Positions 11,628 to 59,710 of a stretch of DNA of 64,000 nucleotides are shown here, in pieces (the first letter of the stretch is position 1; every line of letters begins with the position of its first letter). The stretch comes from Methanosphaera sp. ISO3-F5 (GTDB taxonomy: Archaea; Methanobacteriota; Methanobacteria; Methanobacteriales; Methanobacteriaceae). A program made the position numbers and the translations under genes. Where the stretch lies: NCBI RefSeq assembly GCF_034480035.2, contig NZ_CP118753.2:2337486-2401485 (forward strand), read 5' to 3'. The notes beneath the pieces were generated by a model, which saw only the letters and a program-made list of their open reading frames with translations, ran no database searches and had not been told where the DNA came from.

Positions 11628-11963
11628 GATGATTTCCTCCATTATTTTTTTAATGAATGATTATAAGTTCATTTTTAATTAATTTTTTATTATAATCATT
11701 GTGGAATTTCTTGTATTCTTGAATAAATGTGGTTTTGGTATTTGTGGGAATGTTTGATGAGTTTATGTAATTTTAATAATTGGGTTATTATTGAGTTTGT
11801 GTGTCTTATGTAATCTTAGTTTATATTTTTTTGTATTTTTTTGATTTATTCTTGAATATTCATTCCATAACTTAATAATATAGGAGAAAAAGAATAGTAA
11901 TTGTATTAATTTAGGAAAATATTATATTTTGGGTTTTATATATTTTCTAAGATTAATATGGAT

Positions 11964-39699: not shown

Positions 39700-39736
39700 G
39701 GTGTTGTCAAAATGTGTGGTGAAGTTACCTTTTCCA

Positions 39737-41053
39737 TCATAAAATTGCGTTTCGAGAATCCCATCTTTTAAGCTTCAAATTTAGTCTAGATAAAAATCCA
39801 CGTAATGTTTTAAATTTATTTTTTAAAGATTTAGGTGCTAAATCACCAAAAATACGTTCAATCCAATTACTAGTACGTTCAATAAAACTATCTTCAAGAA
39901 ACATAGTTAAATAACGAGAATAAGGACGAATCTTTTTATCAATAATCTCATTAATAACATCCGGAAACTCTTCACGCCTACCAGAGAGATTATCCAATAT
40001 ATCTAAAACTTCAAATCTATTGTTTGATTCATAAATTTGATAAATTTCTTCTAAATATTTTTTATATTCCTTATGAGTCTTTTTTGAGATATTGTTCTCT
40101 TTTACATGATTATATAAGTATTTGTTGATGTTTTGTTTGGTGTGGAATTCACAAAATTGGTGTTTGAATCCTAAATCTTGTATTGGTTTTCGATAAGCAA
40201 TATGTAAGTCAGTTGTAATTGCTTTACGGGGTTGATTAAGAGTAGCATTTCGTAAGAAATTATAAACTTCCGTACTATTTTCTTCTTCAACTATTTTATA
40301 ATCCACCAATGTTCTATGATGTACATCAAATAATGCAAAGAAATAAACATAATTATCACTAATTTCATCTATTTTAACCCATAAACTATCAAACACATAA
40401 TATCCAGAATAAGTTTCCAAATTAGACTCATATTTAATAATATAATCGACTATAATGTCCTGTACTTCCTGATAAGATACGCATACATTATGTATTCTTT
40501 TCATGATCTCCTGTATTCTGCGAACGGGAGTACCACAAATAGCATAATAATTCTGTATTATCTTCATAATACGCTTGGAAACACTGAATTTTCTATCAAC
40601 TACACTGCTAATATCTGCAGAAAAACCTTTACCACAATTACGACATTCATAACGTTTAATACGAGCATCAACATTACCAAAAACATTTAAAACAAGCTTT
40701 TTAGGATAATAACCATCTTCAACAACATGTTTAGAACCACAATGAGGACAATAACTCCTAAATTGAGTAAAAACAACACCATCTTTAGTTTCAAAAACTT
40801 TCAAATTATCCGCAATCCGAGATAGCTTAGATTTCACATAATCCTCAGCACAGGAAACTGGAAGATCATCATCAAAATAATTATCCAAATAATCTACAAT
40901 CAAATCTTTACAATCAACAGATAATAAATTTACACATTCATCATCAGTATTATCTTTTCTAATAACATCAACCAATGGTTCACTAAAAAAACCGTCAAGT
41001 TTAAGTTGATGACCAACATAATTAATAATAGGAGAGTTATTTTGTACTTTCAT
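39737..41053 (-). CDS. DDE transposase with zinc ribbon
   Basis: 438 residues. An N-terminal zinc ribbon (CPHCGSKHVVEDGYY and later CRNCGKGF, about residues 117-160), a helix-turn-helix-like part, then a DDE domain: first Asp in YVFDSLWVKID, second in TTDLHIAY, and Glu in SFIERTSNWIERIFG. The basic C-terminus (LRGFLSRLNLKLKRW) probably binds DNA. It fills the insertion sequence; the IS family cannot be named with certainty, though 8-bp duplications and this layout occur in ISNCY/IS6-like archaeal elements. Probably active. Confidence 0.85.
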   Translation of the reverse strand: MKVQNNSPIINYVGHQLKLDGFFSEPLVDVIRKDNTDDECVNLLSVDCKDLIVDYLDNYFDDDLPVSCAEDYVKSKLSRIADNLKVFETKDGVVFTQFRSYCPHCGSKHVVEDGYYPKKLVLNVFGNVDARIKRYECRNCGKGFSADISSVVDRKFSVSKRIMKIIQNYYAICGTPVRRIQEIMKRIHNVCVSYQEVQDIIVDYIIKYESNLETYSGYYVFDSLWVKIDEISDNYVYFFALFDVHHRTLVDYKIVEEENSTEVYNFLRNATLNQPRKAITTDLHIAYRKPIQDLGFKHQFCEFHTKQNINKYLYNHVKENNISKKTHKEYKKYLEEIYQIYESNNRFEVLDILDNLSGRREEFPDVINEIIDKKIRPYSRYLTMFLEDSFIERTSNWIERIFGDLAPKSLKNKFKTLRGFLSRLNLKLKRWDSRNAIL

Positions 41054-41112
41054 AATATAATATCTCTCCTTTTTACTATAAAAACTTTATTATCGCTTAT
41101 TTTTTAAAACAC

Positions 41113-41126
41113 GCCCCAAGGGGCGA
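41113..41126 (-). promoter_or_regulatory. GC-rich hairpin inside the IS upstream of the transposase
   Basis: CGCCCC-AA-GGGGCG, a perfect six-base-pair GC stem 60 bp before the transposase ATG. In AT-rich DNA it would be a very stable RNA hairpin. IS elements often use such a structure to block transcripts entering from outside. Confidence 0.55.
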
Positions 41127-41226
41127 ATAAAACTAGTAAAAATTAACATTTAAAAAGAATTAAAAAAGTATTACTTTTTTGCTAAAAAGTAACTGAAAAT
41201 TCATCACCACACATTCTGACTACATC

Positions 41227-41429: not shown

Positions 41430-44400
41430 TTAACTTGTTGTAATATCAGTTGTTGTTTCCCTAGCTGCATGATATGATTGTCTTTCACCAGTAACTATCA
41501 TTACTGAATGAACTTTTTCGCCAGGGGACAATTTTAATCCACTTAAATTAACTTTACCATTTACTATGTTGAAGTATTTGGCTTTACCATTTTCCTGGTA
41601 AGTTCTTCCATTAATTTTTATGGCTATTGTACTGTTTCCAACCAGATTATTACCTTTGTAGTCTGTCATTGTTGCTTTTACGCTTAACTTTGTTCCTTTT
41701 ACGGTTGTTTTTACAAAGTTAATTGTTACATCACTTTTATCTACGTGGAATACTGTTTTGTTTCTAGTGTCTGGGTAGAATGATGGGTTATCATATACTG
41801 CTTCTAGGCTGTAGTGTCTGATACTTCCATTTTTGTAGACGCTAGCTGTTCCAGGTTCTACGTAGTAAGTGTATGTTGCAACATTGTTTATTACATCTAC
41901 ATGTATTTGTGAACCGCTTTCATCCTTGATTGTGTTACCGTTTACTTTGAATATCACTGTTCCATCTGTTGATAGGCTTGTTTTATTCTTAGCGTTGTGG
42001 GTAACATCTTTTAGGTATGCTTTGAAGATAATGTTATTATCTTGTTTTCCTAGTGTTGGAACGGTTGTCACAGTTAGTGTAGCTCTGCGTTTTTGTATTT
42101 GTGCAGTTACCACACTTGACGTGCTTGCCTCGTATTTATAACTACCACTGTATGATGCTGTGAGGTTTTTAACGTTGCGTAGGTAAAGATCTGCTGTGAG
42201 TGTCACGGTTACTTTACCATTCACTACTTTGAATTTAAGTGGTGCTGCTTTGCTGTCGAACCTGTAGTCTTCTCTTAATGTTTTACCATTTAGTTTGAAT
42301 ACTAGGTTTCCTCCAGTTATGTTTTTACCGTTTGTATCGGTTACATGTGCAGTTAGGGTAATCTTTTCTCCAACAATTCCACTTATTTCGTCAACTTTTA
42401 CTTTTGTGTTGTATTTGCTGACTACTTGTGTTGTATTGAGCAATACTTTGTTGTAAGTATCGTTTCCAGAGTATGTTACAGTTACTGGGTTTGTTCCTGC
42501 TCTTACGTCTGGTATTGCTGCAGTGTATTTACCGTTACTGTCGGTTTTTACTACTTTGGTAGTGTTTGCATATTTTACAGTAACTTCTGCGTTTGGTATT
42601 GGTTTGCCATTGGAATCTTTTAAGGTTCCTGTGACTGTTGTTGTATCATCAACTTTTGCTGGTGTTAACTTATTGGTTGTGATGGTTGTATTTACTTTAG
42701 GCACGTCTACCGTGAATGATTTTGTGCTTGGTGTGTAATTGTCGCCATCATATTTTACTTTATAAGTTTGTGTACCAGGAGTTGTTGGAACTGTTACGTT
42801 AACTTTTCCATCTTTGACAGGAGCTTTAATAGTTTTGCCGTCAGGAGTGGTTATTGTTACTGTTCCTGTAGATACAGGTTTACCATTTTCATCTGTGATG
42901 TTTGCAACTATGTTACTGTTACCTGCATCAACTTTTGGCATTGCAACATCAACGACAACATCAACAGTGTCTACATTAAACTTCTTAGCATTATTAATCA
43001 GGTAGTGTTCACCATCACCTGCATATGTTACTGTGACATTGTTTACGCCGGCAGTTGTTGTTGGATTGTTCAATACATAAACACCTTTACTGTTAGTTGT
43101 GGTGTTATATTCTTTTCCATTAACTGTTACTTTGATTGGCTTGTTACTTACTGGTTTATTGTTTTCATCCAGCAAAGTTCCAGTAATGTTAACGTTTCCT
43201 ACTTTTGCCGGACTTGATACATTTAATGTTAATATTGTGTCAAGTTTATCAACTAATAATACTCCAGTATTGTCTGTTGCCCTGTACGTTTCGTTACCAG
43301 CATAACTTACTATTATATTATTAATTCCAACTTTTGTAGGTGTTGTTGTTACTGAATATTTACCATTCTTATCTGTTGTAGCATTTAATGTTTTATCTCC
43401 TACTTTAACAGTTACTTTTGCGTTTGGAACTGCTTTTCCATATTGATCCACTAATATACCATTGATTGTGGATGGTAATCCTAGTTTAATGGTACTTGGT
43501 GTTTCAAATGTTATAGTAGTTATTAATGGACTTACTGTGAAGTTGTACTTGTATTCAACTTTATGTACTTCATCTTCAAATGAAACTGTTATATTGTTGG
43601 TTCCAGTTGAATTTGTAGGATATGAGTATGAATATGTTCCGTTTTCATCAGTTTTTACCGGTACGGTTTCACCATTTACTGTTACATTAATTTCAGTATT
43701 TGCTATTGGTCTATTGTTTTCATCAACTACTTTACCACTGACATTGAATGTTTCTCCGATTACTACTGGTTTAATAGGATCAGGAATAACTGTAATGTTA
43801 TGTTTAGGTATTTGTGTTTCTTCGATTTTGCTTGATGAATTTCCATAAACGGTTGTTCCATCATAAACAACATCCAAGTTGTATGTTTTACCAGCTTCTG
43901 TTGGTACTGATATTGTAACTGTACCATTTATGACTCTGCCGGTACCAATAACTTTATCACCATCTTTAATTTCAACGGTTCCTTCAGTTACTGGTTTACC
44001 TTCACTATCAGTTACTTTTACATCTACTAAGCTTGTTCCAGGTTTTGGAGTAATTTCTGCAACAACATTTGTTTCTTCCTTAGATACGTTGAATGTTGTT
44101 TTGTTACTTGTTCCGATTAGGTTATTGTCTCCAATAAATGTTACGGTTACATTGTTTACTCCGGTTAATCCGGTTAAGTAGTTATATGAGTATTCTCCGT
44201 TTTCATCAGTGGTTGTTGTGTAGTTTTTACCGTTTACTGTGATTATTACATCAACATCACTTACTTTTAATCCAAATTCATCAGTTAAAGTTCCGTTTAT
44301 TTTTACTATATCACCTGTTGTGACACTAGTTAATGTTGGAACTGTGATGTTAGTATGGACTGGTTTTACGTTGAATGTTGTGTTCATAGTTAATGGTGCA

Positions 44401-47400
44401 TATGTTTCATCACCTGCAAAGTTAACCACTACTAATTTATCACCTGTAGTGATAGGATTATATGTTACACTGTAATTACCCTTATCTCCTGTTTTTACTT
44501 TTGCTATTTCTATACCGTTTACGGTTATAGTTATGTTAGCATTAGTGATTGGATTATTGTTTTCATCGACAAGTAATCCTGTGATATTTGTACTGTTGTG
44601 TACAATAGTATCATTCACAGTTTCTAATGATAATTTTGCATCATACTTAGGAACGTCTAATATTATTGTTTTATTAAATGATGTGCTGTTAGTTGTACCA
44701 TTGTATACTATTGTAATGTTATGTGGTCCAGGTGGTAGTGTAATATTTGTTGTTAGGTTACCGTTTTCGTCAATGGTTCCATTACCTATTACAGTACCGT
44801 TTTCATCTGTGATGTTTACAAATCCGCCAGGAATTGCATTACCACCTTCATCGGTAACATTAACTGTAATATTTACTTTACCATTTTCGATGTCACTAAC
44901 GTTAACTTCCACATGACTGCTGTGTTCTTCTACTATGAATTTACCTGTATTATTGGATTCAATGTATACATCTGTTCCATTGTAGAATACTTTAACTTTG
45001 TAGTCTCCAACTGTTGTACCAGTAACATTTAGTGTGTAGAAACCGTTACTATCTGTTGTAGCGGTGTACTTAGTATCATCACCTTCAACTGTGATGTTTA
45101 TCACTGCATCTTTGATAGGGTTTCCTCTGCCATCAACGAGTGTACCGTTAATTGTAGTGTTACTTCCTACCTTAATTGGACTAATTGTACTTACAGTTAA
45201 TCCTGTGAACATCTTATCAACTATGAAGTTAGTTGTTCTGTTTACTGCAGTGTAATTATCATTACCAGCAAACTCTACAGTTACATTGTTAAGACCAACA
45301 ACACTACCAGTTACATTATAACTGTAATAACCTTCCTCGGTTGTTGCGTTATATACGTTTACACCATTGACTGTTATAGTTACGTTTACATCGCTGATAG
45401 CTTCACCAGTTTCATCAACAAGACGACCACTAATAGTAGTGTTATTTCCTACAACTATAGGAGTATCGGCTGTAACATTTATTACACTGAATAACTTGTC
45501 TACTGTGAAGTTGTACTTGTATTCGAGTGGTTCGTATCCTTCTCCAGTGTAGGATACTGTTACGTTGTTGATGCCTGTGGTGTTTGTTGTGTATGGAAGT
45601 TCGTATTTTCCGTTTTCATCTGTTGTAACCGGTTTTGTTTCACCATTAACTGTTATGTTAATTTGTGTGTTTGCTAGTGGTTCGTTGTTTTCGTTTACAA
45701 TTGTACCAGTTATTTCTGTTTCTGTTCCAAGTTTTGTTGGAACGGTAGCATCTGGTATTACACTGAGTATGTGTTCTGGTATTGTTATGTTGAATTTGTA
45801 TGATGATTCTTCGTATACGCTTGTCTGGTTGTATACTATTGTGAAGTTGTATTCTCGGCCAGCTTCCAGATCAGATACTGGTATGTATGCTGTTCCGTTG
45901 ATTACTTGACCAATAGTTATTACTTCACCTTCATCATTTCTTACTTCAACAGGACCATAGGTCACATTTAATCCACTGATTGTCTCGGTAACATTTACTT
46001 CAATAATATTAGCACCAACACGAGGACTGGATATATTAGCCCTTGTAGTAGTGTTAATACGTGTTACATTGAAACTAGTACTGTTAACTGTTCCAATAAT
46101 GTTATTGTCACCAATAAAGGTCACGGTAACATTATTTACGCCAGCAGTACCTGTTGTGTAATTGTAACTGTAATTACCATACTCATCAGTAGTAGCAGTA
46201 TAGTTTTTACCATTTACTGTTATGATTACTTCAACATTGCTCATGTTAAATCCGAGTTCATCTACAAGAGTACCGTTAATGTTCACAACACCACCAATAG
46301 TAATGTTATCAATATCTGATACTGTGATGTTAGTATGAACAGGACCTACATTGAATGTTTTGTTTACACTTAATGGAGCGTATGTATCATCACCAGCAAA
46401 GTTAACAATTACCTGTTTTTCACCAACTGTTGTAGCATTATATGTTACACTGTAGTTACCATCTTCACCAGTAATTACTTTAGCTATTTCTAATCCGTCA
46501 ACGGTTATTGTTATGTTAGCATTAGTGATTGGATTATTGTTTTCATCTACAAGTAATCCTGTGATATTTGTACTGTTGTGTACAATTGTATTGTTGATGT
46601 CTTCTAATGATAATTTTGCATCATATTTTGGAACATCTAATCTGATTGTTTTATTATATGATGTGCTGTTAGTTGTACCATTGTATACTATTGTAATGTT
46701 ATGTGGTCCAGGTGGTAGTGTAATATTTGTTGTTAGGTTACCGTTTTCGTCAATGGTTCCATTTCCTATTACGTTACCGTTTTCATCTGTGATGTTTACA
46801 AATCCGCCAGGAATTGCATTACCACCTTCATCGGTAACATTAACTGTAATATTTACTTTACCATTTTCGATGTCACTAACGTTAACTTCTACATTTGTGC
46901 TGTGTTCTTCTACTATGAATTTACCTGTATTATTGGATTCAATGTATACTTCGCTTCCATTGTAGAATACTTTGACTTTGTAGTCTCCTACTGTTGTACC
47001 AGTAACGTTTAGTGTGTAGTAACCATCATTGTCTGTTGTAGCATTGTACTTATCACTATCTCCGACTGTAATGTTTATCACAGCATCAGTTATACCGTTT
47101 CCTCTGCCATCAACGAGACGACCACTAATTGTTGTATTACTGCCCACTTTAACAGGACTGACAGTTGTTACATTCACTGCAGTGAACATCTTATCAACAT
47201 AGTAATATGTTGTAGTATTTACTGCTGTGTAAGTACTGTTTCCACTATAAACAACAGTTACATTGTTAAGTCCTAGAGTATCAGTCACAACACTTAAAGT
47301 ATAATTACCTTCACTATCAGTAGTCACGGTATCATTTAGTTCTCCATTTATCCAAACTTCAACACTTGCACCACTAATACTATTACCTTTTTCATCTTTT

Positions 47401-50400
47401 AACACACCAGTAATCGTGGTAGTATTATTGATTACTATAGGACTTGTAGCATTAGCAGTTATTTGTGTAAATATTGGACTTACAGTGAAATTAAATGAAA
47501 CACTGCTACCATTATAGGTATCGTTACCATCATAAACGATTGTTACATTATTTATACCAGTAATGTTTGTAGTGTTAGTGTAAGTAAACTTACCATCAAC
47601 ATCAACAGGAACTGTTGCATTTATTCCATTAATACTAATATTCACAGTTGCAGGACCTACAGGATTATTGAATTGATCCACAAGAGTACCATTAACTATG
47701 ATAGTATCATTAATTTTAACAGCATTAACTGCTCCTGGAATAATTGTAGTGTTAAGTTTTGGTATGTTTTTGGTTGTGGTTGTTGTTGAGTTTTCGTAAA
47801 TATCTGTTCCATCGTATTTGACTGTGAATGTGTATTCTTTTCCAGCCTCTGTTGGTACGGATATTATTGCTGTACCATTAACTATTTTACCAGTTGCTAT
47901 GGTTACTGTTCCATCTGTTACTGTTATTGGACCGTCTGTTACGTTCTGTCCAAATTCGTCTGTAACATTTACTGTGATTAAACTTATACCAGCAACTGTG
48001 GTGATTACTTCCGCAGTTGTGGTTGTTTTAATTCTTGTTACGTTGAAAGTTGATGTGTTTGTAAATGCACTTATTGTATTGTTTCCTTCGAATGTTACGG
48101 TTATGTTGTTTTCTCCTACAACGTGTGCTGTGAGTGTGATGTTGTATCCTCCAGTACTGTTTGTTGTAGTTGTGTAATTTCTACCGTTTACTGTTAGGAT
48201 AATTTCAGCATCTGCTACTATGTTATTGAATTCATCGGTTACTGTACCGTTTATGTTGGTAGTGTTTCCTATTGTGATGTTTTCAATTTCTGTGATTGTT
48301 GCATTTGCTGTTAATTGTCTTGCTTCGAAGGTTTTGTTAACTTCTACTGCTTCGTAGGTTGCATTTCCTTCGTATACTACCCGTACAGTGTTTAGAACTG
48401 TGGTTGTTGCATTGTATTCATAATTATATGTTCCATCAGTTACTGTTGCATTTGTTACAAACTTGTTGTTAACATATATTGATACGATAACATTGTCTAA
48501 GTTGTTACCATCAGTATCTTTTAATGTACCTGTAATGTTAGTTGTGTTACGTACTATTGTGTTGTTAATATCTTCAAGTGTGAGGTTAATTCCATATTTT
48601 GGTACATTCAGTACTATTGTTGTATTGTATGGTGTGCTGTTTGTTGTACCGTTGTATGAAATTGTGATGTTATGTGGTCCAGGTGGTAGTGTAATATTTG
48701 TTGTTAGGTTACCGTTTTCGTCAATGGTTCCATTACCAATTACAGTACCGTTTTCATCTGTGATGTTTACAAATCCACCAGGAATTGCATTACCACTCTC
48801 ATCAGTAACATTAACTGTTATGTTAACTTTACCATTCACAATATCAGATACGTTAATTGCTACATTACTACTGTGTTCTTCTACTATGAATTTACCTGTA
48901 TTATTGGATTCAATGTATACATCTGTTCCATTGTAGAATACTTTGACTTTGTAGTCTCCAACTGTTGTACCAGTAACATTTAGTGTGTAGTAACCATCAT
49001 TGTCTGTTGTAGCAGTATACTTAGTATCATCACCTTCAACTGTGATGTTTACCACTGCATCTTTGATAGGGTTTCCTCTGCCATCAACGAGACGACCACT
49101 AATAGTAGTGTTAGTTCCTACTTTTATTGGACTAATAGTTGTTACATTCACTGCTGTGAACATCTTATCAACATAGTAATTGGTTGTTGTGTTAACAGGT
49201 GTGTAAGTATCATTACCTTTGTAGATAACTGTTACATTATTTAGTCCTAGAGTATCAGTCACAACACTTAAAGTATAATTACCTTCACTATCAGTAGTCA
49301 CGGTATCATTTAGTTCTCCATTTATCCAAACTTCAACACTTGCACCACTAATACTATTACCTTTTTCATCTTTTAACACACCAGTAATCGTGGTAGTATT
49401 ATTGATTACTATAGGACTTGTAGCATTAGCAGTTATTTGTGTAAATATTGGACTTACAGTGAAATTAAATGAAACACTGCTACCATTATAGGTATCGTTA
49501 CCATCATAAACGATTGTTACATTATTTATACCAGTAATGTTTGTAGTGTTAGTGTAAGTAAACTTACCATCAACATCAACAGGAACTGTTGCATTTATTC
49601 CATTAATACTAATATTCACAGTTGCAGGACCTACAGGATTATTGAATTGATCCACAAGAGTACCATTAACTATGATAGTATCATTAATTTTAACAGCACT
49701 AACTGCTTCAGGAATAATTGTAGTGTTAATTTTAGGTATTGTTACTGTGTATATTGTACTGTTAGCTGAGTACTTGGTTATTCCTTCATATGTTATGTTT
49801 AGTGCGTGTTCTCCAGGGTTTAGTACTATTGCTGTTACTAATTCTCCGTTAATAATGATTCCATTACCAAGTTCTTTGTCACCTTCTTTGATAGTGACTT
49901 TTCCTGTGGTTACATTATTATTCTTTTCATCAGTAACGTTGATAGTTATGAGATTGTTTCCTGGGCGTGGGTTTGTAATATTTGCAGTTATATTTGTTGG
50001 ATGTGCTGTTACATTAAACGTGGTACTGTTAGCTGTACTGTTAAATGTGTTGTTTCCAGCATAGTATACTGTAATATTATTTTCGCCTACAACACTTGTT
50101 GTGTATTCAATGTAATAGTTTCCATTATCATCAGTAGTGTTTGTATAGTTTACACCATTAATTTCTATGGTTACTGGTGCGTTTGGAATTATGATGTCAA
50201 ATTCATCAACGAGTGTTCCATTAATTATTACAGGATAGTCAACGGTTATGTTTTCTATGTTTGTAATATTAATGTTTGAGATGATCTTGTTAACTGTGAA
50301 GTTTCCTGTTGCTTCTATTCTGGAATGTGTACTGTTTCCTGCAAAGACTACGAGCACTTCTTTGAATCCAGAGGTTGTTGCATTGTATTGACAGGAATAG

Positions 50401-53400
50401 TTACCATCTTCACCAGTGGTTACATTAGCTATTGCTATTCCATCAACATATATTGTCAAATTTTCTCCAATGATAGGATTATGTTCTGCATCTTCATAGT
50501 AGAGGAATCCTGTTATGTTTGTGGAGTTTCTGACTTTTGTATCGTTTATGTCATTTATTGTGATGTTTAAGTTGTATAATGGAACTTCAAGTGTTACAAC
50601 GGTTCTTGAAGATTTGTATAATTCTTCTGTTCCATTGTAGACTATTATGATGTCCTGTACTCCAGGTTCTAGTGGAACACTTATTTCCACTGTACCATTT
50701 TCTCCAACTGTACCATTACCTATTGGTTCACCATCTTCATCATAATAAACAAGTACTGTTCCTTCTGGAATTGGGTCACCGTTTTCATCAGTTACATTTA
50801 CAAGTATTGTAGCATTACCTGCTTTAACACTTGTTACATTAGTTGTGATGAACACATCAAGTTTATCCACTGTGAATGTCACATAGTCATCCACTGGTTC
50901 TTGTGAATAGTTTCCTGCATAACTGAGTGTTATGTTGTTTAATCCAAGTTGTGTTGAATTGTATTCGAAACTGAAACGTCCACGATTATCTGTTTTAACA
51001 GTTTTTGTTGTGGATTCGTTACCGTTTAATGTTACATTAAATTCTGTGTTAGCTAGTCCACGTCTTGATTCATCTATCAAGTAACCTATTACTGTAGTGT
51101 TTTGTCCAAGTTCCACATTTGTTGCTTCGAGTTGATCGAAGTGTGTGTATATTTTTATGACATTTACTTGGTAAGTGTTATTTGATGAGTAGTACTTGTC
51201 TGTACCATTGAATCTGAATGTGATGTTCTGTAATCCTACTTCATTAGCAGTAACGGTATAGTTCACATCACCTAATCCACGTGTACTGGTATTTAATTTT
51301 TCAATTCCGTTCATGTATACTGTGATGATTTGACGATCTAATACATTACCATATTCATCAAATAGTATTCCCTTTACAAGTATTTTATCTCCATAGTTAA
51401 CTGGAGATATTCCTGTGATGTTAATGTGTGTGATGACTTTTTCCACTTTTATTTGATAGGTGTCAAATGATTTCAGATATTTGTTGTCACCAGTGAAATT
51501 TACTGTAATGTTGTAAATTCCATCTTTTGCTTGAGTGAAATTAAATTCGTAACTACCATCATAGTCTGTAGTATCATGAGCTACTACTACTCCATTTATT
51601 GTTAGGTTAACTATTTTGTTTCCTAGTTTGTTTCCAAATTCATCCTCGAGTATTCCAGTTATAGTGGTTGTGTCACCGACTTTGATTAGTCTGTCAGCAC
51701 TTACTGAAATATCAGTGACATATGGTTTTACAATAAATGTTGCAGTATCATGACTACCCCAGTATACATTATTTGTTTCAAATACAACCCTTACATCATT
51801 TCTTCCTAAAACACTAGTAGTGTAGTTATAATAGTAGTAACCTTCTTCATTGGTTCGTAGGTTGATTGCTTCGGCTGCATTGTTTATATACATTTGTACT
51901 GTTGCATTAACTATTGGAGTACCGTTATGTAATACAAGGTATCCTCCTAGTTGAGTTACGTTTCCTACTAAAACAGGAGTTTCAGATGTAACATTTAGCA
52001 TTGAATCTAATCTTAGTACTTGTATTATGTCCTTAGTATATGAGTTTAAGTAGAATAATGATCCTTTGAATTCAGCGGTAACATTTTTTGTTCCATATGT
52101 TGTGTAAAATACTGGTATGCTTATTGTACCGTTTTCATCAGTGATGAATGTGTCTTGATGTTCATGGTCATTAGCTATTATTGATTCGTTAGCTAATGGG
52201 TTTCCATCAATATCCTTTAAAGTTATGTTAATTGTTACATTATCATAAACATGTATTGGTGATGGTACTGTTATTGTTGTAATTGTTCTTTGTTTTACTG
52301 TTATTTGATGAGTATTACTTGATGAGTTATAATAATCATCCCCATCAAATTTTACGGTTATATTGTTTAATGCAACCTTATCGAAGGATACAAATAATCT
52401 TACCGTACCGTTACTGTCTGTTGTTAGATTAGATTCTGTGTAATCTGTTCCATTTATTGTGATTATTAATGTTTTATTTGCTAATTGTTCTCCTTTTTCA
52501 TCAGATAAAGAGAATAATATGCTTTCTTCTGTTCCAACTGTTGTTCTTTCAATAGTTGATATTGTTACTGTTGTGTTTTTGAAGGAAGTGATTCTTATTG
52601 TTCCGGTTTCTGCTTGACTTTCATAGAATACATTATTAGTATTATATAGTGCTCGAATATTGTATCTACCATAATCTGCTTCAAGAACTTCTAACTTATC
52701 TGTAACAAGTTCATATTTACCATTAACTACTGTTACATTACCCAGTTCTATTCTTTCACGAAGACCTGTGGTAAAATTAGTATATTCTGCAGTTAATGTC
52801 ACATTTCCAATGTTTATTGACGGATAACCTTCACTTGTTACGTTTCCTACAATAACTGTTTTTGTATCAAGGTTTTCTGTTACAGCTATACTTGTAACTG
52901 TTGCAGCACGGAATACTGTGAATGTTGCCGTAGCCGATGAGGCTGCATGATGTTCATCACCTGCATAACTTACTGATACCTGTACAGTAGTTCGTTCAGG
53001 CCATGTCCAAGGAATCTCATAGTATACTTCTCCATTGATAACATTTAGTTCTAGAGGTTCATGTTCCCCTACTGTTAAATTAACCTTTCCAGTTAATGGA
53101 GTGTTTCCGTTTTCTTCAAGGTTAATTCGTACAACACTTGTCCTGTTAACATATGTGTTATTAGGACTTACTGCAACCCAAGTAGTATTTTTACCTAATA
53201 ATAGATGAACAGGTAATGAAGAGTTTCTGTACTTGTAATCTTCAAGACAGTATGCTGTTATAGTCACATTATCATTTGTATTTATGGTGACATTAACAGT
53301 ATAAGATGCTAGGTCATCAGTTTTAACAACAATAGACTCTATTACCGTACCATTTTTAATTGTGGTTATGTTAATAGTCTTATTTTTAATTAAATTATGA

Positions 53401-56400
53401 TCTATGTCATATAATGTGAATGTAATATTTACATCCCCACCACCAGAAGGTAAAGCAGTAGTATTACTGTGGAAGTGTGTAGGATATCTTTCAATAAAGA
53501 GTTGTCCACTTACTTCTGCAGGTATTGCATATTGATCACTTGATTCATGCACTGATGCTACTACTTGTATATGCCCATTTTCATAAGCTTTGAATAAGTA
53601 GGTGATATTACCGTTTTCATCTGGTACTTTTACAATTCCTGTTTTGTTTGTTACATTTAATGTTATGTTGAATACTCTGAGTGTACTGTTGTTTCTTGAA
53701 TCATACAAGGTTACATTTATGTATCCTTCATCATCAGGATGTGAGACATTGTTTGGTAGTGTTAATACCATGTGAGTTGGGATTTTTATTATTTCTATTG
53801 TCCCTGTGGTATTAGAGTTAACATGAGAACTGTTACCTTCAAATGATGCATTCATTGGATAATTACCATAAATAGGGAAACTGATATTTTGTATAACTAC
53901 GTATCCATTTTCACCAGTGTTTCTAGTGTATTTTGTACCATTGATGTAAACTGTTATGTTTGCATTCTTTAGCAGAGTGTTATTCTCGATTTCATATAAT
54001 GAAACTGTGACATTTATTTTGTCATCAACATATGTCTGATTTATAGGTGAAATAACAATTCTTGTTGGTTTACCCATATGTACCTCAGTTTTAACATTCA
54101 TGTCCTGATAATGATGACTTAATGATTGATAAACGGCTGTTGCATTAGTTAATGATTTTTTAATTGAAGGTCTGTATATTCTTACACTAGCATTACCATC
54201 AATAACTCGTCCTTCACCAATACGATTGAACTCTTCATCGTATAAGTAGACTGTACCATTTCTTACTGTGTCATTATAAATGTTTCTTAAATTAACAGTA
54301 ACATTAACAAAATATTCCAGTACCTCAAGTGGCACATCTATTAAAACAGGAATATCTATTGTATCATTAAGATAATTGTCAATATAAGTGTTTCCTGTGA
54401 TACTTTGTGGTTGAACCTCACCTAGAAGCATGTCTCTTGTAAGATCAGTGTTTGAATCAAATAAGTTATTAACAATTGTTGCAGAAACAACACTGTTAAG
54501 TATAACATATCCTGTTGGACTTGTTACTTTATTATTTGATACTGTATTATCAGTTAGTGTTAAAACTCCTAGATTTAGTATAACTGATTTTGTTCCAATG
54601 TTTGAATCGATTGTTGATTCAGTTATGGTTACATTACCACGATTTTCAAGAACTGCCCCGTCAGGTGCATTGTTTAATGTGAATTCATCATTATTTGCTG
54701 TGAAGTTTGCATCTGCAACATTGTATAACACTCCACCACTAGCGGTTGCTGTATCCTTAGTATATATGTTACCAGTGGAATTAATGTTTCCCCTGTTATA
54801 GAATACCCCACCATAGTTTGCAGTGTTATCAGTGTATGTGTCACTTCCAAGAACATTTACTGTTGCTCCCTGAGTCACATACATCACTCCACCATCATTT
54901 GATGCCCGGTTATGTCCATATGTACTGCCAGTAGTGTTTACTTCAGCATTTCCATCAAGATATAATACTCCACCCTCTGTAGCATTGTTTTGGTTAAACA
55001 TTGATGATGAAATATTTGCCTTGGAATCGTTTGACACATATATTGCTCCACCCTGTGTTGCTTTATTTGATGAGAAAGTATCATGTTGTGAGTTATATAT
55101 TACTTCATCAAGATATATTGCTCCACCCTGTGTAGCATTGTTTTGTGTGAAAGTTACTGTTGAAGTATTTAAGTCTGATTTAGTATAAATAGCAGCCCCT
55201 TTACTTGCAGTGTTGTTAGTGTATTGACCACTGGATAAGGATACTGTTACTCCTTCATCAATATATAATGCACCATTATCTGCATTATTTTTAATGAACT
55301 GGTTTCCATTAGTGATTAACTGGCTGCCTTTTTGTGCATATATTGCACTACCATTTGTAGCATTACCATTTTTATAGATACCGTTTGTAGAATTAAGAAC
55401 TACTGTATCATTCAGGTATATTGCTCCACCAAGTGTTGCCTTGTTTGAATCAAATGTTGTACTTGTTTTAACTGTTACAGTATTGTTTGCTTGTGCATAT
55501 ATTGCACCACCCATACTTGCATTGTTATTTATGAACTCGTCAGCACTTGTGGTAATATTACTCTGATTACCCAAGTATACTGCTCCTCCAAGAATTGCAC
55601 TGTTATTCACGTATTTTACATCACGTGATGAAGTTATTACAACATTTTCTTCGGTAAATATTGCTCCACCATTTTGGCCTGCAGTATTTCCATCAACTTC
55701 TATTTGTTGAATAACTATGTTCCTATCGGAACAGGCGTATATTGCACCACCATTCTCCAAAGCAGTATTGTTGTAGTAATTGTTTCCTCTTCCACTAAAG
55801 GTACCATTATCTATTAATGCTCCACCATTTGTAGCACTGTTTGCTATGAAAGTGTTGGAATTGGCTGATACTGTTGCATTGTTATATAATACACCAGCAC
55901 TGGTTGCATTATTATTTTTGAAAATATTGCCTTCTGATGTAATCATACCATTATTGAATACTACTCCACCAATTGTAGCATTATTTTCTTCAAAAGTACT
56001 GTCCCTTGCAGTTAAAGTACCATTATTGTATATTGCACCCCCTATAGGTGCTGTGTTATTAATATTAGTACCTGATCTTTTTATGATTGTACCATTTTCA
56101 GAGTTGAATGTGGCACCACCATATAATGTTGCAGTATTGTTAATTAACTTATTGTTAATACTCTCTATAGTACCATTTAGGTTGTAGATTGCTCCACCAA
56201 TCTGTGCGGTGTTGTTTAGGTAGATTTCATCTTCTGTATCAACCATACCTGCTTCAACATATAATACTCCACCATATTCTAGTGCTTTGTTGTCTGTATA
56301 ATTTGATCCTTCTGATTCAATTGCCCTATTTGTCTGGTTTACATAGAATACTCCACCACGAGTAGCCGTGTTATTATATGAATGGTCATAATTTGTGTCA

Positions 56401-57995
56401 AATTTACCATTGTTTTCTATGTAGAATACTCCACCTAGGGTAGCATTGTTATTTCTGAATACACCCCTACCCGATATTAATTCTGCCCTATTTGTAAGGT
56501 AAACCACACCACCATTTTCTGCAGTGTTATTTTCATAAATATCATCAGATCCTACGAAATTAGAATCAGCTCCTGTAAGGAATAATGCACCACCATTGGT
56601 AGCACTTAAATTATAGTAGCCGCTATTAATTGATGTTATTGTACCTTCTGAATAAACTGCAGCACCATTCACAGCACTGTTGTTGTTGAATGTTTCATTA
56701 TTCAATTGGATGCCAGCATTTACACCAACAGCTAATGCTCCACCATTATTTGCAGTGTTATTTTCGTATTTGTTTCCAGTTAAACGACCTTCAACACCAG
56801 CTTTGATAAGTATAGCTCCACCACTTGTTGCTGAGTTATTAACAAAAGTGTTGTTTTCTATGATTAAATCTAGAGCTCTGTTAACTGCTATTGCTGCTCC
56901 ACTTGTAGCATTGTTGTTACTGAATGTGTTGTTAATTATTGTCCTTATTTGACCATAATTTGTATTATAAATGTATATTGCTCCTTCGTTTGCTGCAGTG
57001 TTGTTGATGAAAGTGTTATTTTCTAGATATAAACTTTCACCTTGAGCCATATAAATAGCACTATCCATTCCATTATTATTTAGTGAGGTACCATTGATGA
57101 AGTTAGTATTGGTAATTTTTACATTACCCTGTGCATCATAAACAATTGCTGCTCCCTTAGGACTTTTGGAATCTATGAAAGTAACATTATCTATTGTGAG
57201 GTTTGCATAGTCAGTTCCTACCCTAATAGCTCCACCGTCACTAGCTGCTGTAGAATTTATAAATACTGAATCAATGATTGTTAAATCACCCCTATGAATC
57301 AGTATTGCTCCTCCTTGGTTAGCCGATGAATTTATAAATGTACAATTGGAGATATAAACGGTTGGTTTATGAATTCCATATATAACTCCTCCCATTACGT
57401 TATTATTAGAAGGATAACAATTTTGAAAAGTTAAATTTGTAACATTTAATGTAAAGAAAATACCAGTATCTCTGTTTCCACCAACATGTAAAAACCTATT
57501 CTTATTTTTACCATCAATTATAGCACCGTTACCTATAATTGTAAGATTTCTTAAAGCAACTTCTTGCCTCCAAGTTAGCTGTTCATAAGTGATTTCATAT
57601 GTTTTAGTTTCAAATATGAACGTAGAATTTTCAGTGGCTGTTCTTAAATTGTTCATGAAATCATTCCAGGTATGTATGTTATATACTGACTGGGCTTGTT
57701 TTAGTGTTTTGGTGTTTGTGTTTTTTTGTATTGTTTTGGCGTTTGTGTTGTTGTTTGTAGTTGTTTTGTTGTTTGTCGTTGTTGTATTGGATGTCTGACT
57801 AGTATTTTTTTCGCCTATTCTATTTGTAGTGACTGATTTACTAGTATCTAAGTCACTATTGATTTTTTTATTTTCGTTTTTGTTTGTTTGTACGTTATTT
57901 GTTGCATGTGTTGTTTGTGTTGTTATGGTTGTGTCTGTTTGGTTTGTGTTGTCGTTCTGGTTTGTTGCTGTGGTTGCTGTTAGGCTGCATAACAA
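41430..57995 (-). CDS. Giant adhesin-like surface protein 2 (about 5,520 residues)
   Basis: The first standard start in frame is TTG 57995, but it cuts the signal peptide. Fifteen codons upstream, ACG at 58040, placed 8 bases after GGAGG, would give TLNKKIIFLTCVIILLLCSLTATTA, a full signal peptide. Order: Thr/Asn/Gln linker (about 20-140); a long region of GGAIY/GGVFY...N.A.NGG repeats as in polymorphic outer membrane (PMP/ChlamPMP) beta-helix proteins (to about residue 1190, nt 54430); then about 40 Ig-like repeats of about 95 residues with GxLVDExGNPI and GNDTYN motifs to the end. No C-terminal membrane anchor is seen. Very many N-x-S/T sites could be glycosylated. Likely binds other cells or surfaces; target unknown. 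Confidence 0.85.
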   Translation of the reverse strand: MLCSLTATTATNQNDNTNQTDTTITTQTTHATNNVQTNKNENKKINSDLDTSKSVTTNRIGEKNTSQTSNTTTTNNKTTTNNNTNAKTIQKNTNTKTLKQAQSVYNIHTWNDFMNNLRTATENSTFIFETKTYEITYEQLTWRQEVALRNLTIIGNGAIIDGKNKNRFLHVGGNRDTGIFFTLNVTNLTFQNCYPSNNNVMGGVIYGIHKPTVYISNCTFINSSANQGGAILIHRGDLTIIDSVFINSTAASDGGAIRVGTDYANLTIDNVTFIDSKSPKGAAIVYDAQGNVKITNTNFINGTSLNNNGMDSAIYMAQGESLYLENNTFINNTAANEGAIYIYNTNYGQIRTIINNTFSNNNATSGAAIAVNRALDLIIENNTFVNNSATSGGAILIKAGVEGRLTGNKYENNTANNGGALAVGVNAGIQLNNETFNNNSAVNGAAVYSEGTITSINSGYYNLSATNGGALFLTGADSNFVGSDDIYENNTAENGGVVYLTNRAELISGRGVFRNNNATLGGVFYIENNGKFDTNYDHSYNNTATRGGVFYVNQTNRAIESEGSNYTDNKALEYGGVLYVEAGMVDTEDEIYLNNTAQIGGAIYNLNGTIESINNKLINNTATLYGGATFNSENGTIIKRSGTNINNTAPIGGAIYNNGTLTARDSTFEENNATIGGVVFNNGMITSEGNIFKNNNATSAGVLYNNATVSANSNTFIANSATNGGALIDNGTFSGRGNNYYNNTALENGGAIYACSDRNIVIQQIEVDGNTAGQNGGAIFTEENVVITSSRDVKYVNNSAILGGAVYLGNQSNITTSADEFINNNASMGGAIYAQANNTVTVKTSTTFDSNKATLGGAIYLNDTVVLNSTNGIYKNGNATNGSAIYAQKGSQLITNGNQFIKNNADNGALYIDEGVTVSLSSGQYTNNTASKGAAIYTKSDLNTSTVTFTQNNATQGGAIYLDEVIYNSQHDTFSSNKATQGGAIYVSNDSKANISSSMFNQNNATEGGVLYLDGNAEVNTTGSTYGHNRASNDGGVMYVTQGATVNVLGSDTYTDNTANYGGVFYNRGNINSTGNIYTKDTATASGGVLYNVADANFTANNDEFTLNNAPDGAVLENRGNVTITESTIDSNIGTKSVILNLGVLTLTDNTVSNNKVTSPTGYVILNSVVSATIVNNLFDSNTDLTRDMLLGEVQPQSITGNTYIDNYLNDTIDIPVLIDVPLEVLEYFVNVTVNLRNIYNDTVRNGTVYLYDEEFNRIGEGRVIDGNASVRIYRPSIKKSLTNATAVYQSLSHHYQDMNVKTEVHMGKPTRIVISPINQTYVDDKINVTVSLYEIENNTLLKNANITVYINGTKYTRNTGENGYVVIQNISFPIYGNYPMNASFEGNSSHVNSNTTGTIEIIKIPTHMVLTLPNNVSHPDDEGYINVTLYDSRNNSTLRVFNITLNVTNKTGIVKVPDENGNITYLFKAYENGHIQVVASVHESSDQYAIPAEVSGQLFIERYPTHFHSNTTALPSGGGDVNITFTLYDIDHNLIKNKTINITTIKNGTVIESIVVKTDDLASYTVNVTINTNDNVTITAYCLEDYKYRNSSLPVHLLLGKNTTWVAVSPNNTYVNRTSVVRINLEENGNTPLTGKVNLTVGEHEPLELNVINGEVYYEIPWTWPERTTVQVSVSYAGDEHHAASSATATFTVFRAATVTSIAVTENLDTKTVIVGNVTSEGYPSINIGNVTLTAEYTNFTTGLRERIELGNVTVVNGKYELVTDKLEVLEADYGRYNIRALYNTNNVFYESQAETGTIRITSFKNTTVTISTIERTTVGTEESILFSLSDEKGEQLANKTLIITINGTDYTESNLTTDSNGTVRLFVSFDKVALNNITVKFDGDDYYNSSSNTHQITVKQRTITTITVPSPIHVYDNVTINITLKDIDGNPLANESIIANDHEHQDTFITDENGTISIPVFYTTYGTKNVTAEFKGSLFYLNSYTKDIIQVLRLDSMLNVTSETPVLVGNVTQLGGYLVLHNGTPIVNATVQMYINNAAEAINLRTNEEGYYYYNYTTSVLGRNDVRVVFETNNVYWGSHDTATFIVKPYVTDISVSADRLIKVGDTTTITGILEDEFGNKLGNKIVNLTINGVVVAHDTTDYDGSYEFNFTQAKDGIYNITVNFTGDNKYLKSFDTYQIKVEKVITHINITGISPVNYGDKILVKGILFDEYGNVLDRQIITVYMNGIEKLNTSTRGLGDVNYTVTANEVGLQNITFRFNGTDKYYSSNNTYQVNVIKIYTHFDQLEATNVELGQNTTVIGYLIDESRRGLANTEFNVTLNGNESTTKTVKTDNRGRFSFEYNSTQLGLNNITLSYAGNYSQEPVDDYVTFTVDKLDVFITTNVTSVKAGNATILVNVTDENGDPIPEGTVLVYYDEDGEPIGNGTVGENGTVEISVPLEPGVQDIIIVYNGTEELYKSSRTVVTLEVPLYNLNITINDINDTKVRNSTNITGFLYYEDAEHNPIIGENLTIYVDGIAIANVTTGEDGNYSCQYNATTSGFKEVLVVFAGNSTHSRIEATGNFTVNKIISNINITNIENITVDYPVIINGTLVDEFDIIIPNAPVTIEINGVNYTNTTDDNGNYYIEYTTSVVGENNITVYYAGNNTFNSTANSTTFNVTAHPTNITANITNPRPGNNLITINVTDEKNNNVTTGKVTIKEGDKELGNGIIINGELVTAIVLNPGEHALNITYEGITKYSANSTIYTVTIPKINTTIIPEAVSAVKINDTIIVNGTLVDQFNNPVGPATVNISINGINATVPVDVDGKFTYTNTTNITGINNVTIVYDGNDTYNGSSVSFNFTVSPIFTQITANATSPIVINNTTTITGVLKDEKGNSISGASVEVWINGELNDTVTTDSEGNYTLSVVTDTLGLNNVTVIYKGNDTYTPVNTTTNYYVDKMFTAVNVTTISPIKVGTNTTISGRLVDGRGNPIKDAVVNITVEGDDTKYTATTDNDGYYTLNVTGTTVGDYKVKVFYNGTDVYIESNNTGKFIVEEHSSNVAINVSDIVNGKVNITVNVTDESGNAIPGGFVNITDENGTVIGNGTIDENGNLTTNITLPPGPHNITISYNGTTNSTPYNTTIVLNVPKYGINLTLEDINNTIVRNTTNITGTLKDTDGNNLDNVIVSIYVNNKFVTNATVTDGTYNYEYNATTTVLNTVRVVYEGNATYEAVEVNKTFEARQLTANATITEIENITIGNTTNINGTVTDEFNNIVADAEIILTVNGRNYTTTTNSTGGYNITLTAHVVGENNITVTFEGNNTISAFTNTSTFNVTRIKTTTTAEVITTVAGISLITVNVTDEFGQNVTDGPITVTDGTVTIATGKIVNGTAIISVPTEAGKEYTFTVKYDGTDIYENSTTTTTKNIPKLNTTIIPGAVNAVKINDTIIVNGTLVDQFNNPVGPATVNISINGINATVPVDVDGKFTYTNTTNITGINNVTIVYDGNDTYNGSSVSFNFTVSPIFTQITANATSPIVINNTTTITGVLKDEKGNSISGASVEVWINGELNDTVTTDSEGNYTLSVVTDTLGLNNVTVVYSGNSTYTAVNTTTYYYVDKMFTAVNVTTVSPVKVGSNTTISGRLVDGRGNGITDAVINITVGDSDKYNATTDNDGYYTLNVTGTTVGDYKVKVFYNGSEVYIESNNTGKFIVEEHSTNVEVNVSDIENGKVNITVNVTDEGGNAIPGGFVNITDENGNVIGNGTIDENGNLTTNITLPPGPHNITIVYNGTTNSTSYNKTIRLDVPKYDAKLSLEDINNTIVHNSTNITGLLVDENNNPITNANITITVDGLEIAKVITGEDGNYSVTYNATTVGEKQVIVNFAGDDTYAPLSVNKTFNVGPVHTNITVSDIDNITIGGVVNINGTLVDELGFNMSNVEVIITVNGKNYTATTDEYGNYSYNYTTGTAGVNNVTVTFIGDNNIIGTVNSTSFNVTRINTTTRANISSPRVGANIIEVNVTETISGLNVTYGPVEVRNDEGEVITIGQVINGTAYIPVSDLEAGREYNFTIVYNQTSVYEESSYKFNITIPEHILSVIPDATVPTKLGTETEITGTIVNENNEPLANTQINITVNGETKPVTTDENGKYELPYTTNTTGINNVTVSYTGEGYEPLEYKYNFTVDKLFSVINVTADTPIVVGNNTTISGRLVDETGEAISDVNVTITVNGVNVYNATTEEGYYSYNVTGSVVGLNNVTVEFAGNDNYTAVNRTTNFIVDKMFTGLTVSTISPIKVGSNTTINGTLVDGRGNPIKDAVINITVEGDDTKYTATTDSNGFYTLNVTGTTVGDYKVKVFYNGTDVYIESNNTGKFIVEEHSSHVEVNVSDIENGKVNITVNVTDEGGNAIPGGFVNITDENGTVIGNGTIDENGNLTTNITLPPGPHNITIVYNGTTNSTSFNKTIILDVPKYDAKLSLETVNDTIVHNSTNITGLLVDENNNPITNANITITVNGIEIAKVKTGDKGNYSVTYNPITTGDKLVVVNFAGDETYAPLTMNTTFNVKPVHTNITVPTLTSVTTGDIVKINGTLTDEFGLKVSDVDVIITVNGKNYTTTTDENGEYSYNYLTGLTGVNNVTVTFIGDNNLIGTSNKTTFNVSKEETNVVAEITPKPGTSLVDVKVTDSEGKPVTEGTVEIKDGDKVIGTGRVINGTVTISVPTEAGKTYNLDVVYDGTTVYGNSSSKIEETQIPKHNITVIPDPIKPVVIGETFNVSGKVVDENNRPIANTEINVTVNGETVPVKTDENGTYSYSYPTNSTGTNNITVSFEDEVHKVEYKYNFTVSPLITTITFETPSTIKLGLPSTINGILVDQYGKAVPNAKVTVKVGDKTLNATTDKNGKYSVTTTPTKVGINNIIVSYAGNETYRATDNTGVLLVDKLDTILTLNVSSPAKVGNVNITGTLLDENNKPVSNKPIKVTVNGKEYNTTTNSKGVYVLNNPTTTAGVNNVTVTYAGDGEHYLINNAKKFNVDTVDVVVDVAMPKVDAGNSNIVANITDENGKPVSTGTVTITTPDGKTIKAPVKDGKVNVTVPTTPGTQTYKVKYDGDNYTPSTKSFTVDVPKVNTTITTNKLTPAKVDDTTTVTGTLKDSNGKPIPNAEVTVKYANTTKVVKTDSNGKYTAAIPDVRAGTNPVTVTYSGNDTYNKVLLNTTQVVSKYNTKVKVDEISGIVGEKITLTAHVTDTNGKNITGGNLVFKLNGKTLREDYRFDSKAAPLKFKVVNGKVTVTLTADLYLRNVKNLTASYSGSYKYEASTSSVVTAQIQKRRATLTVTTVPTLGKQDNNIIFKAYLKDVTHNAKNKTSLSTDGTVIFKVNGNTIKDESGSQIHVDVINNVATYTYYVEPGTASVYKNGSIRHYSLEAVYDNPSFYPDTRNKTVFHVDKSDVTINFVKTTVKGTKLSVKATMTDYKGNNLVGNSTIAIKINGRTYQENGKAKYFNIVNGKVNLSGLKLSPGEKVHSVMIVTGERQSYHAARETTTDITTS
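44500..49720 (-). repeat. About 1.97-kb super-repeat inside adhesin-like gene 2
   Basis: The same block of Ig-like domains recurs with a period of 1,980 and 1,971 bp: the marker ATGTGGTCCAGGTGG lies at 44721, 46701 and about 48672. Segments are almost identical in DNA: 47270-47727 and 49243-49700 appear to match over about 458 bp. Other parts have diverged, so it is mosaic, as expected from unequal crossing-over or gene conversion. Confidence 0.8.
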
Positions 57996-58486
57996 CAGTA
58001 TTATGACACATGTTAAGAAAATTATTTTCTTGTTTAACGTGACTTATACCTCCATTTTTGGACAAAAATTACCCTTGTCTTGTATATTTGTTTTGTTAAG
58101 TATTTATAATTTGGTTAATTATCAAATTATATGTTGCATGGCTTGTTATTGTTTTTTTATATTTTGTTTAATGTTTGGTGTGTTTGGTTTGTGTGTTGTT
58201 ATTTGTTGTTTTTTGTTTTTTTTTAGTGTATTGGTGTATATATAGTGTATTTAAATTTTTATAAATTAACAATGTTATATAATTTTTTTCTGAACAATGT
58301 TTAAAATAAACATGAAAAAACTTATTGAAAAATCAATAATTTTAAGTATCTTAAGAGAATTGGAAAATATTATCAAATTTCCTTACATAATAAGAATTAT
58401 TTTAAAATAAATCTGTTAATAAAAAAAGCAGCATTTCAAACTATATGCAATTAAAAAGAATAAGAGTAATGGATTTGAATCCATTA
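57996..58486. promoter_or_regulatory. Leader of adhesin-like gene 2 and 3' side of metK
   Basis: The piece 57996-58040 continues the adhesin frame with the signal-peptide codons from ACG; an in-frame TAA stands at 58044-58046 just before it. The ribosome site GGAGG is at 58049-58053. A TATA-like run (CACTATATATACACC on the minus strand) lies near 58235-58250 and could be the promoter. The remainder is AT-rich; the metK terminator is at 58467-58486. Confidence 0.5.
58467..58486 (-). terminator. metK terminator hairpin
   Basis: TAATGGATT (58467-58475), two bases, then AATCCATTA (58478-58486): a perfect nine-base-pair stem abutting the metK stop and followed on the minus strand by a T-rich stretch. 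Confidence 0.65.
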
Positions 58487-59710
58487 TTAGAATGTTCTGA
58501 GTTTTCCTTCGAGCATGAAGTCTTTGATGTCTGTGATGTTTCCCAACCATTTGTCAATGATTTTTGTTACATCTTCTTCCACATCGTCTATGCTGTATCC
58601 TTCTTCTGTTGTGATGTGTGCTGTTGCTGTTCTTGGCTGGTCGATTGGTTTTCCGATTTGGCTGAGTATTATCATGTCGATGTTTTTTACACCTTCCACG
58701 TCACTTACTACTTCTCTTGTGATTTCATTGGATAGGAGGTTGTATATTTTTCCCACGTGGTTGATTGGGTTTTTTCCACTGGTTGCTTCCATACTCATTG
58801 GCCTGTTTGGTGTGATGAGTCCGTTTGCTCTGTTTCCTCTTCCTACTGATCCGTCGTCTCCCATTTCTGCGCTTGTTCCTGTTACTGTTAGGTAGTATCC
58901 TGATTCGTCTTTTTTGGTTTCGTCATCTGCTGTGTTTATGAGTGTTTCTACGTTGAGGTCTGTGGTTTTTGCTGCTAGGTCTTTTACTATGTCGATGAGT
59001 TCTTCTTTTCCGCTGAGGTATGCGTCTCTGTCATCTACGTATTTGGATACGAATGCTGCTGCGATTGTGAGTGTGATGTCGTCTCTTTCTCTTAGTCCCA
59101 TTACTTTTATGTCTTCTCCTACGAATGGGTGTTGTTTTTTGAATGATTTGCTGTTTAGTAGTTCTTCTGTTTTGAGTACTAGGTTTTCTGTTTCGCTGAA
59201 TGGTGCGAATCCTACTCCGAATGATGTGTCGTTGGATGATGGTATTTCGTTTGGTCTTTGGAATACATCTCTTAGGTCTGCGCTTCCTTCTCCTATTTTA
59301 CATTCTACTACTGTTCCGTATTCTACGTCTAGGTTTATGATTGTGTCTTGTAGGAATTCTTTTGCTGCTTCTATTGCTATTGTGTCTACTCCTACTTTGT
59401 GTGTTTCTCCGTTTGGTAGTGTGAATTGGTTTGCTGCTCTTCCTGTTAGTAGTATTTCTATTGGTTTTATGATTTGTCCGCCACCGAATTTTGGGTCGGA
59501 TTCTCCTGCTGTGATTTGTACTTCGTCTGTGTTGTGGTGTAGTACGTGTCCTACTTTTTCTTTGTATGTTTGAGATAGTACTCTGCTTACTGCTTCTGCT
59601 ATTCCGTCACTTATACTGTCTGGGTGACCTATTCCTTTTCTTTCTACTATTTCTATTTCGTTTAGTTCTACTGGTCTTTGTATTGCTTTTTCGATTTTTA
59701 TATTTCTCAT
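58487..59710 (-). CDS. metK: S-adenosylmethionine synthetase, archaeal type
   Basis: 407 residues of the archaeal MAT family, distinct from bacterial MetK. It makes SAM from methionine and ATP. The N-terminal [38 protein letters not shown] near residue 75, and [24 protein letters not shown] near 290 are family hallmarks. AGGTGT lies before the ATG. It is a single gene, with strong A/C preference on the coding strand as in ileS. SAM is used by cbiE and other methyltransferases. Confidence 0.93.

Follow-up and report, generated by a model that had tools for sequence, protein, structure and literature searches.

An ACG codon behind a Shine–Dalgarno sequence as the probable start of a giant adhesin-like gene in Methanosphaera, and apparent AUU and AUC starts in other adhesin-like genes

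Non-canonical start codons are known in bacteria; infC, for one, has an AUU start and is autoregulated. The sigR gene of Streptomyces is reported to start with GTC behind the ribosome-binding site AGGAGGTG and to be repressed by the initiation factor IF3, and the same source names infC as having a non-canonical start (PMC5472188). In archaea, Shine–Dalgarno sequences (SDs) are described on many mRNAs, and the initiation factor aIF1 is described as disfavouring non-AUG starts (PMC6237735). The unannotated small open reading frames (ORFs) found by ribosome profiling of M. mazei reportedly start with ATG in 56% of cases, with TTG and GTG in about 20% each and with CTG in 5% (PMC11456600). An ATC start was inferred from alignment for L12ae of Staphylothermus marinus (PMC2678158). 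A 2021 review places the non-canonical translation events demonstrated in archaea by then solely at the elongation and termination stages (PMC8211752). In Methanosphaera stadtmanae, 39 of 42 adhesin-like proteins (ALPs) are reported to be anchored in the membrane at the N-terminus (PMC11532034). Here we consider a 64,000-nucleotide stretch of the genome of Methanosphaera sp. ISO3-F5 (the window), in which a giant adhesin-like gene, adhesin 2, has ACG where its start codon should be.

The ACG at 58040-58038 is probably the start codon in use, a near-cognate codon placed by an SD and giving low but real synthesis of the adhesin. The minus strand reads, from 58055 downward, ATG GAG GTA TAA GTC ACG TTA AAC AAG AAA. 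The features needed below are listed by window position. G000 denotes the window's own genome (2,680,162 bases in 2 contigs, 99.99% complete), and other G numbers denote relatives.

41430..58040, minus strand: adhesin 2, giant adhesin-like ORF read from ACG (from the sequence and Pfam matches)
58038..58040, minus strand: ACG, proposed near-cognate start codon (also ACG in G015, TTC in G018)
58048..58053, minus strand: Shine–Dalgarno GGAGGT (from the sequence and a spacing tally)
58055-58053, minus strand: leader ATG of adhesin 2
58044..58046, minus strand: in-frame TAA, last codon of ATG GAG GTA TAA, which rules out upstream starts
58043-58041, minus strand: GTC, second non-canonical start candidate, less well spaced than ACG
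57960..58037, minus strand: signal-sequence coding region (LNKKIIFLTCVIILLLCSLTATTATN), conserved in G015 and G018
57993..57995, minus strand: TTG, first canonical in-frame start, keeping only part of the signal sequence
58033..58074, minus strand: 42-nucleotide block (5' leader, SD, ACG and first ORF bases), identical in G015
58101..58108, minus strand: TATA-box-like TATAAATA, 26 nucleotides before the 42-nucleotide block, a putative promoter element
58487..59710, minus strand: metK (S-adenosylmethionine synthetase), upstream neighbour of adhesin 2, syntenic in G015
6426..11642, minus strand: adhesin 1, opening ATG GAG GAA ATC ATC TTG, its ATG also in frame

Read from the ACG, the adhesin 2 ORF runs for 16,611 nucleotides, or 5,536 codons, to 41430 with zero internal stops, in agreement with the 16.6 kb given by a first-pass annotation of the window. 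It encodes in order a signal sequence, a T/N-rich linker, repeats resembling the beta-helix type (judged by eye from the repeat pattern) and Ig-like repeats; Pfam Big_3_5, Big_1 and CarboxypepD_reg score above cut-off within 49000-58040. Both hallmarks of an ALP are present, namely the N-terminal signal or membrane anchor and long repeats of Ig-like or beta-helix type. So are two marks of a non-canonical start: no canonical start is able to give the full protein, and an SD lies at start-codon distance. The TAA at 58046-58044 blocks any start further upstream. No ATG, GTG or TTG occurs in frame between it and the TTG at 57995, which is 16 codons past the TAA, lies inside the signal sequence and leaves part of it only. 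Among the codons compared, a complete signal peptide needs the ACG, as the first-pass annotation had it; the hydrophobic segment after LNKK is conserved in three species and is complete only when read from there. That annotation had also described a leader shared with adhesin 1, and both copies are present: ATGGAGG and 8 nucleotides are followed by TTG in adhesin 1 (at 11642) and by ACG in adhesin 2. Its TTG start for adhesin 1 stands as a codon, but that start is not certain, as the leader ATG shares the frame of the TTG.

The distance of the ACG from the SD is that of ordinary starts in this genome. It is 14 nucleotides from the A of the AGGAGG register. A 344-kb sample of G000, made up of the window together with 14 pieces of 20 kb each, contains 225 ORFs that reach 120 codons or more; of the 34 ATG codons that lie in frame close to an SD run of at least 6 there, 24 are 13-16 nucleotides from that A. 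A uniform rule, calling for an SD run of at least 5, a non-canonical codon at 12-16 nucleotides and no ATG, GTG or TTG until five codons beyond, flags 3 of the 225 ORFs. One is adhesin 2; the others, judged spurious, are ORFs of 121 and 413 codons, the longer of which has an ATG further on behind an SD-like stretch of its own. Adhesin 2 is the sole convincing adhesin case in this sample. Among the 49 fetched adhesins that combine a canonical start with an SD run of at least 5, ACG makes up 0 of the 294 codons at positions 2-7, against 17% for ATT, ATC and ATA together. The folding of the adhesin 2 leader RNA was not clearly better than that of shuffles (z of -1.02 and -0.95).

A protein search of 20 genus genomes gave clear relatives over the N-terminal region in G015 (47%) and G018 (42%). 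G015 is a different Methanosphaera species, with 90% DNA identity to G000 in metK, and its adhesin 2 orthologue is downstream of metK as in G000. The matched 5' region has 81% DNA identity, and the 42 identical nucleotides common to the two genomes, running from GGGTAATT to ACGTTAAA, include the ACG. The chance of 42 consecutive matches is about 1e-4 at 81% identity and about 1e-2 at the 90% of metK. Most of the intergenic DNA that separates metK from this block is without match in G015. A TATA-like TATATATA stands in G015 at the same distance, 26 nucleotides before the block, and because both genomes have such a box there, the block may be a transcribed leader. The G015 ORF is open for at least 2,964 codons, to the contig end. 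The G018 relative (L106) is at another locus and has no canonical start ahead of its signal; TTC follows AAAGGAGGT at the place of the ACG. The codon compared in relatives is then ACG in G015 and TTC in G018, or ACG in two of three orthologues with G000 counted. In G010, of the same species as the window, the 3' end of adhesin 2 was found at 99% identity and neither its 5' end nor metK was found, so the closest comparison is missing. No named orthologue of adhesin 2 was confirmed in a wider genome-contig database, from which close relatives' records were possibly excluded. The leader as a site of repeated recombination or inversion was considered and is unsupported: exact copies of its 18-mer number one in G000 and one in G015. 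Near matches to the 18-mer (up to 3 mismatches, 14 of 20 genomes) are mostly not gene starts, the exceptions being apparent ATG starts, one each in G005 and G010.

These comparisons bear on where else translation might begin. Starting at TTG 57995 or later, with a truncated signal, is very unlikely. The TTG is in frame, is also the first canonical codon of the G015 orthologue and was the choice of the ORF lister. By eye, no SD precedes it, as against the GGAGGT before the ACG; the codons ahead of it are conserved as signal sequence (NKK-IFLTC) in G000, G015 and G018; and the first canonical codon of G018 is a later ATG, codon 21 of the frame. It is decidedly improbable that the tiny ORF ATG GAG GTA TAA, which overlies the SD, is translated and that ribosomes restart at GTC or ACG. 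G000 and G015 have the same four-codon ORF, which ends 3 nucleotides before the ACG, but no SD is seen ahead of its ATG, and the leaders compared from two other adhesin groups described below have no such tiny ORF. We give hardly any credence to a sequencing or assembly error. A single base decides the matter, but G015, a separate genome, agrees in this base and in its 42-nucleotide context, and the G000 assembly is nearly complete in its 2 contigs.

The first-pass annotation had left the choice between a used ACG and silencing of the gene by a single T-to-C change. Silencing of that kind is disfavoured, the G015 orthologue having ACG at the same locus too. The leader, allowing up to 3 mismatches, is present in 2 of 138 family genomes, both times with ACG, and no ATG version was found among the 138. 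If the ACG is older than the divergence of these species, the reading frame has been maintained since then behind an ACG. When random substitutions were introduced at half the metK distance, the window ORF acquired a mean of 30 stops (20 runs, lowest 22), against the 5,536 open codons that are found; so long an open frame would be unlikely had silencing happened as early as that divergence. More broadly, the ACG might be inert, an off allele in G000 and G015 that is perhaps switched by a point change or by exchange of the 5' end. The TTC in G018, the lack of an adhesin between metK and ileS in that genome, the variability of adhesin loci and the internal stops of two G000 adhesin-like matches would suit such a silenced gene, which we nonetheless regard as unlikely. 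Two species carry the ACG at one and the same locus, behind an identical leader and ahead of an open frame, and AUU or AUC recurs across species in two other adhesin groups, which is unexpected from a recent off switch. The ACG of adhesin 2 looks like a retained trait rather than the mark of a defective gene, and use of the ACG is now the better supported arm of that choice.

A survey of the genus took 120 adhesin-like ORFs (36 in G000) from best-first match lists, a best-ranked subset, and their 5' regions were fetched. With four ORFs open at the 5' end removed and three adhesin 2 relatives added there were 119, and eight of these were without a signal or had an early stop, leaving 111 signal-bearing ORFs. 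In 100 of them ATG, GTG or TTG precedes the first hydrophobic segment and in 11 it does not. L125, L143 and L231 were dropped from the 11 by eye, an ATG preceding the presumed true signal. The eight that remain without a canonical start ahead of the signal have ATT in L147 (G009), L184 (G019) and L149 (G002), ATC in L195 (G015) and L235 (G000), ACG in G000 and G015, and TTC in G018. L147, L184 and L195 are mutual orthologues, and two of the eight belong to G000. Leaving out the adhesin 2 group, which defined the search, the count is 5/108. L192 (CTG) and L193 (ATA) look SD-placed and have canonical codons upstream; they were left out of the eight. L252 in G016 (ATT) has a TTG at its SD and is outside the counted set.

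Two of these cases extend into groups of orthologues. Group A has ATT in G019 and G009 and ATC in G015. Group B, the orthologues of L235, has ATC in G000, G010 and G015 (two ATC in a row in G015) and ATT in G014 and G012, behind SD runs of 6-8 at 13-15 nucleotides from the start. The first canonical codon comes 92 codons in for G000, 175 for G015, 49 for G014 and 87 for G012; G010 has a GTG within its SD. In G015, G014 and G012 an in-frame TGA overlaps the SD, so an upstream start is impossible, and these stops exclude, for the three, a conserved isoleucine inside a longer protein as another source of such codons. Group B matched 6 loci in the wider database: 3 in Methanosphaera or Methanobacteriaceae records, with the first codons of G010, G015 and G014, and 3 in bacterial records as short partial matches. 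Adhesin 2 fits what seems a broader pattern among Methanosphaera adhesin-like genes, some of which have AUU, AUC or ACG behind an SD-like stretch. Editing of C to U in the mRNA, turning ACG into AUG, can be practically discounted. A single transition separates the ACG from AUG, and the codon is common to two species, but editing leaves AUU and AUC in the other groups unexplained, and we know of no C-to-U mRNA editing of such kind in archaea, a point on which no search was made.

Under the uniform rule with an SD run of at least 5, 7/111 adhesins are flagged versus 2/224 controls (Fisher p = 0.007), a test with two likely false hits per side and with three adhesin hits that are the adhesin 2 group. 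With a run of at least 6 the counts are 5/111 versus 0/224 (Fisher p = 0.004); the rows of both tests are not independent, including orthologues and same-species pairs, and the p values are indicative only. These limits weigh against a used ACG, and further points do the same. In 3 of the 8 ORFs (L184, L195, L149) the SD-like stretch is rich in G and its run falls below 5. The G018 relative (C88, L106) reads AAAGGAGGTATTTTC TTC AAT AAG AAA, and TTC is not near-cognate. ATG is found in the group B paralogues L231 and L294 (G000) and L295 (G010), in the G007 relative L277, and in group A's more distant G007 and G001 relatives (L247, L248). Most relatives are draft assemblies. The ACG may also be nearly silent, given the reported bias of aIF1 against non-canonical starts (PMC6237735). 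Of the 20 genus genomes, 15 yielded a SUI1/aIF1 gene, G000 among them; no match was found in G002, G005, G006, G014 and G015, listed at 70-91% completeness.

With these points weighed, the ACG is most likely a weak, SD-driven near-cognate start that limits the output of a very large surface protein. The strong SD would hold the 30S subunit at the ACG, where the initiator tRNA would pair with one mismatch from AUG, and initiation at a low rate would yield the giant adhesin as a secreted protein, its signal sequence complete. Such a start would probably act as a translational throttle, its leak set by start-codon discrimination, in archaea by aIF1. The sequences themselves show the layout, an ACG common to two species and the recurrence in other adhesin genes; initiation at the ACG, the low output and any regulation are what we infer. 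For the genus we offer, tentatively and with somewhat more doubt than belief, that Methanosphaera keeps near-cognate starts (AUU, AUC, ACG) behind SDs in several distinct adhesin-like groups as a throttle, possibly aIF1-responsive, which holds part of the adhesin repertoire low and adjustable, and that these starts escape standard annotation, which cuts the signals short.

Some observations stand beside these genes. In the G000:C1:1775145-1776230 region (L235, L274), an adhesin gene is without ATG, GTG or TTG in its first 92 codons and has ATC at the SD-defined start. Four others on G000:C1 (L207, L221, L226, L227) have apparent GTG starts behind a GGAGG-type SD and similar N-termini; weak starts with a strong SD may be common in the adhesin family. 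Adhesin-like matches with internal in-frame stops lie at G000:C2:41944-42474 (1 TGA) and G000:C1:1874581-1875945 (2 TAA). About 200 bp past the adhesin 2 stop, an IS-like element at 39702-41224 has 21-nucleotide terminal inverted repeats (90%) and encodes a 438-amino-acid ORF weakly similar, below cut-offs, to IS256/ISH6 transposases. It is missing from the matching place in the same-species G010, where similar stretches occur on several contigs. No plasmid match was found.

Among the matches listed by a literature search, no paper dealt with methanogen adhesin start codons or with recurrent AUU, AUC or ACG starts in archaeal adhesin genes. If proven, conserved near-cognate adhesin starts would add initiation to archaeal non-canonical translation and provide ready test genes. 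They would give a gut archaeon a simple way to limit synthesis of 5,500-residue surface proteins. ORF callers would shorten such proteins; in 4 of 5 group B members the first ATG, GTG or TTG is 49-175 codons in.

As described in the survey of Methanosphaera stadtmanae and Methanobrevibacter smithii, ALPs resemble adhesin 2 in being very long and repetitive with an N-terminal anchor; the main text of that survey has the words "start codon" 0 times (PMC11532034). L12ae of S. marinus, as reported, is likewise an archaeal gene without a valid start codon for which AUC was inferred, and differs in being a single gene with no gene-family pattern described for it. The infC gene shares a conserved non-canonical start with adhesin groups A and B; unlike the adhesins, which encode no such factor, it is autoregulated by its own initiation factor. 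The closest worked example is sigR. It is a bacterial regulator, experimentally shown and under IF3, whereas adhesin 2 encodes an archaeal surface protein, known from sequence, and archaea use aIF1 instead. Canonical codons are reported to raise the output of sigR, and its start is reported as misannotated in genomes (PMC5472188). What sigR and adhesin 2 have in common is a strong SD in front of a non-canonical start, which for adhesin 2 is a proposed one, shared by two of three orthologues.

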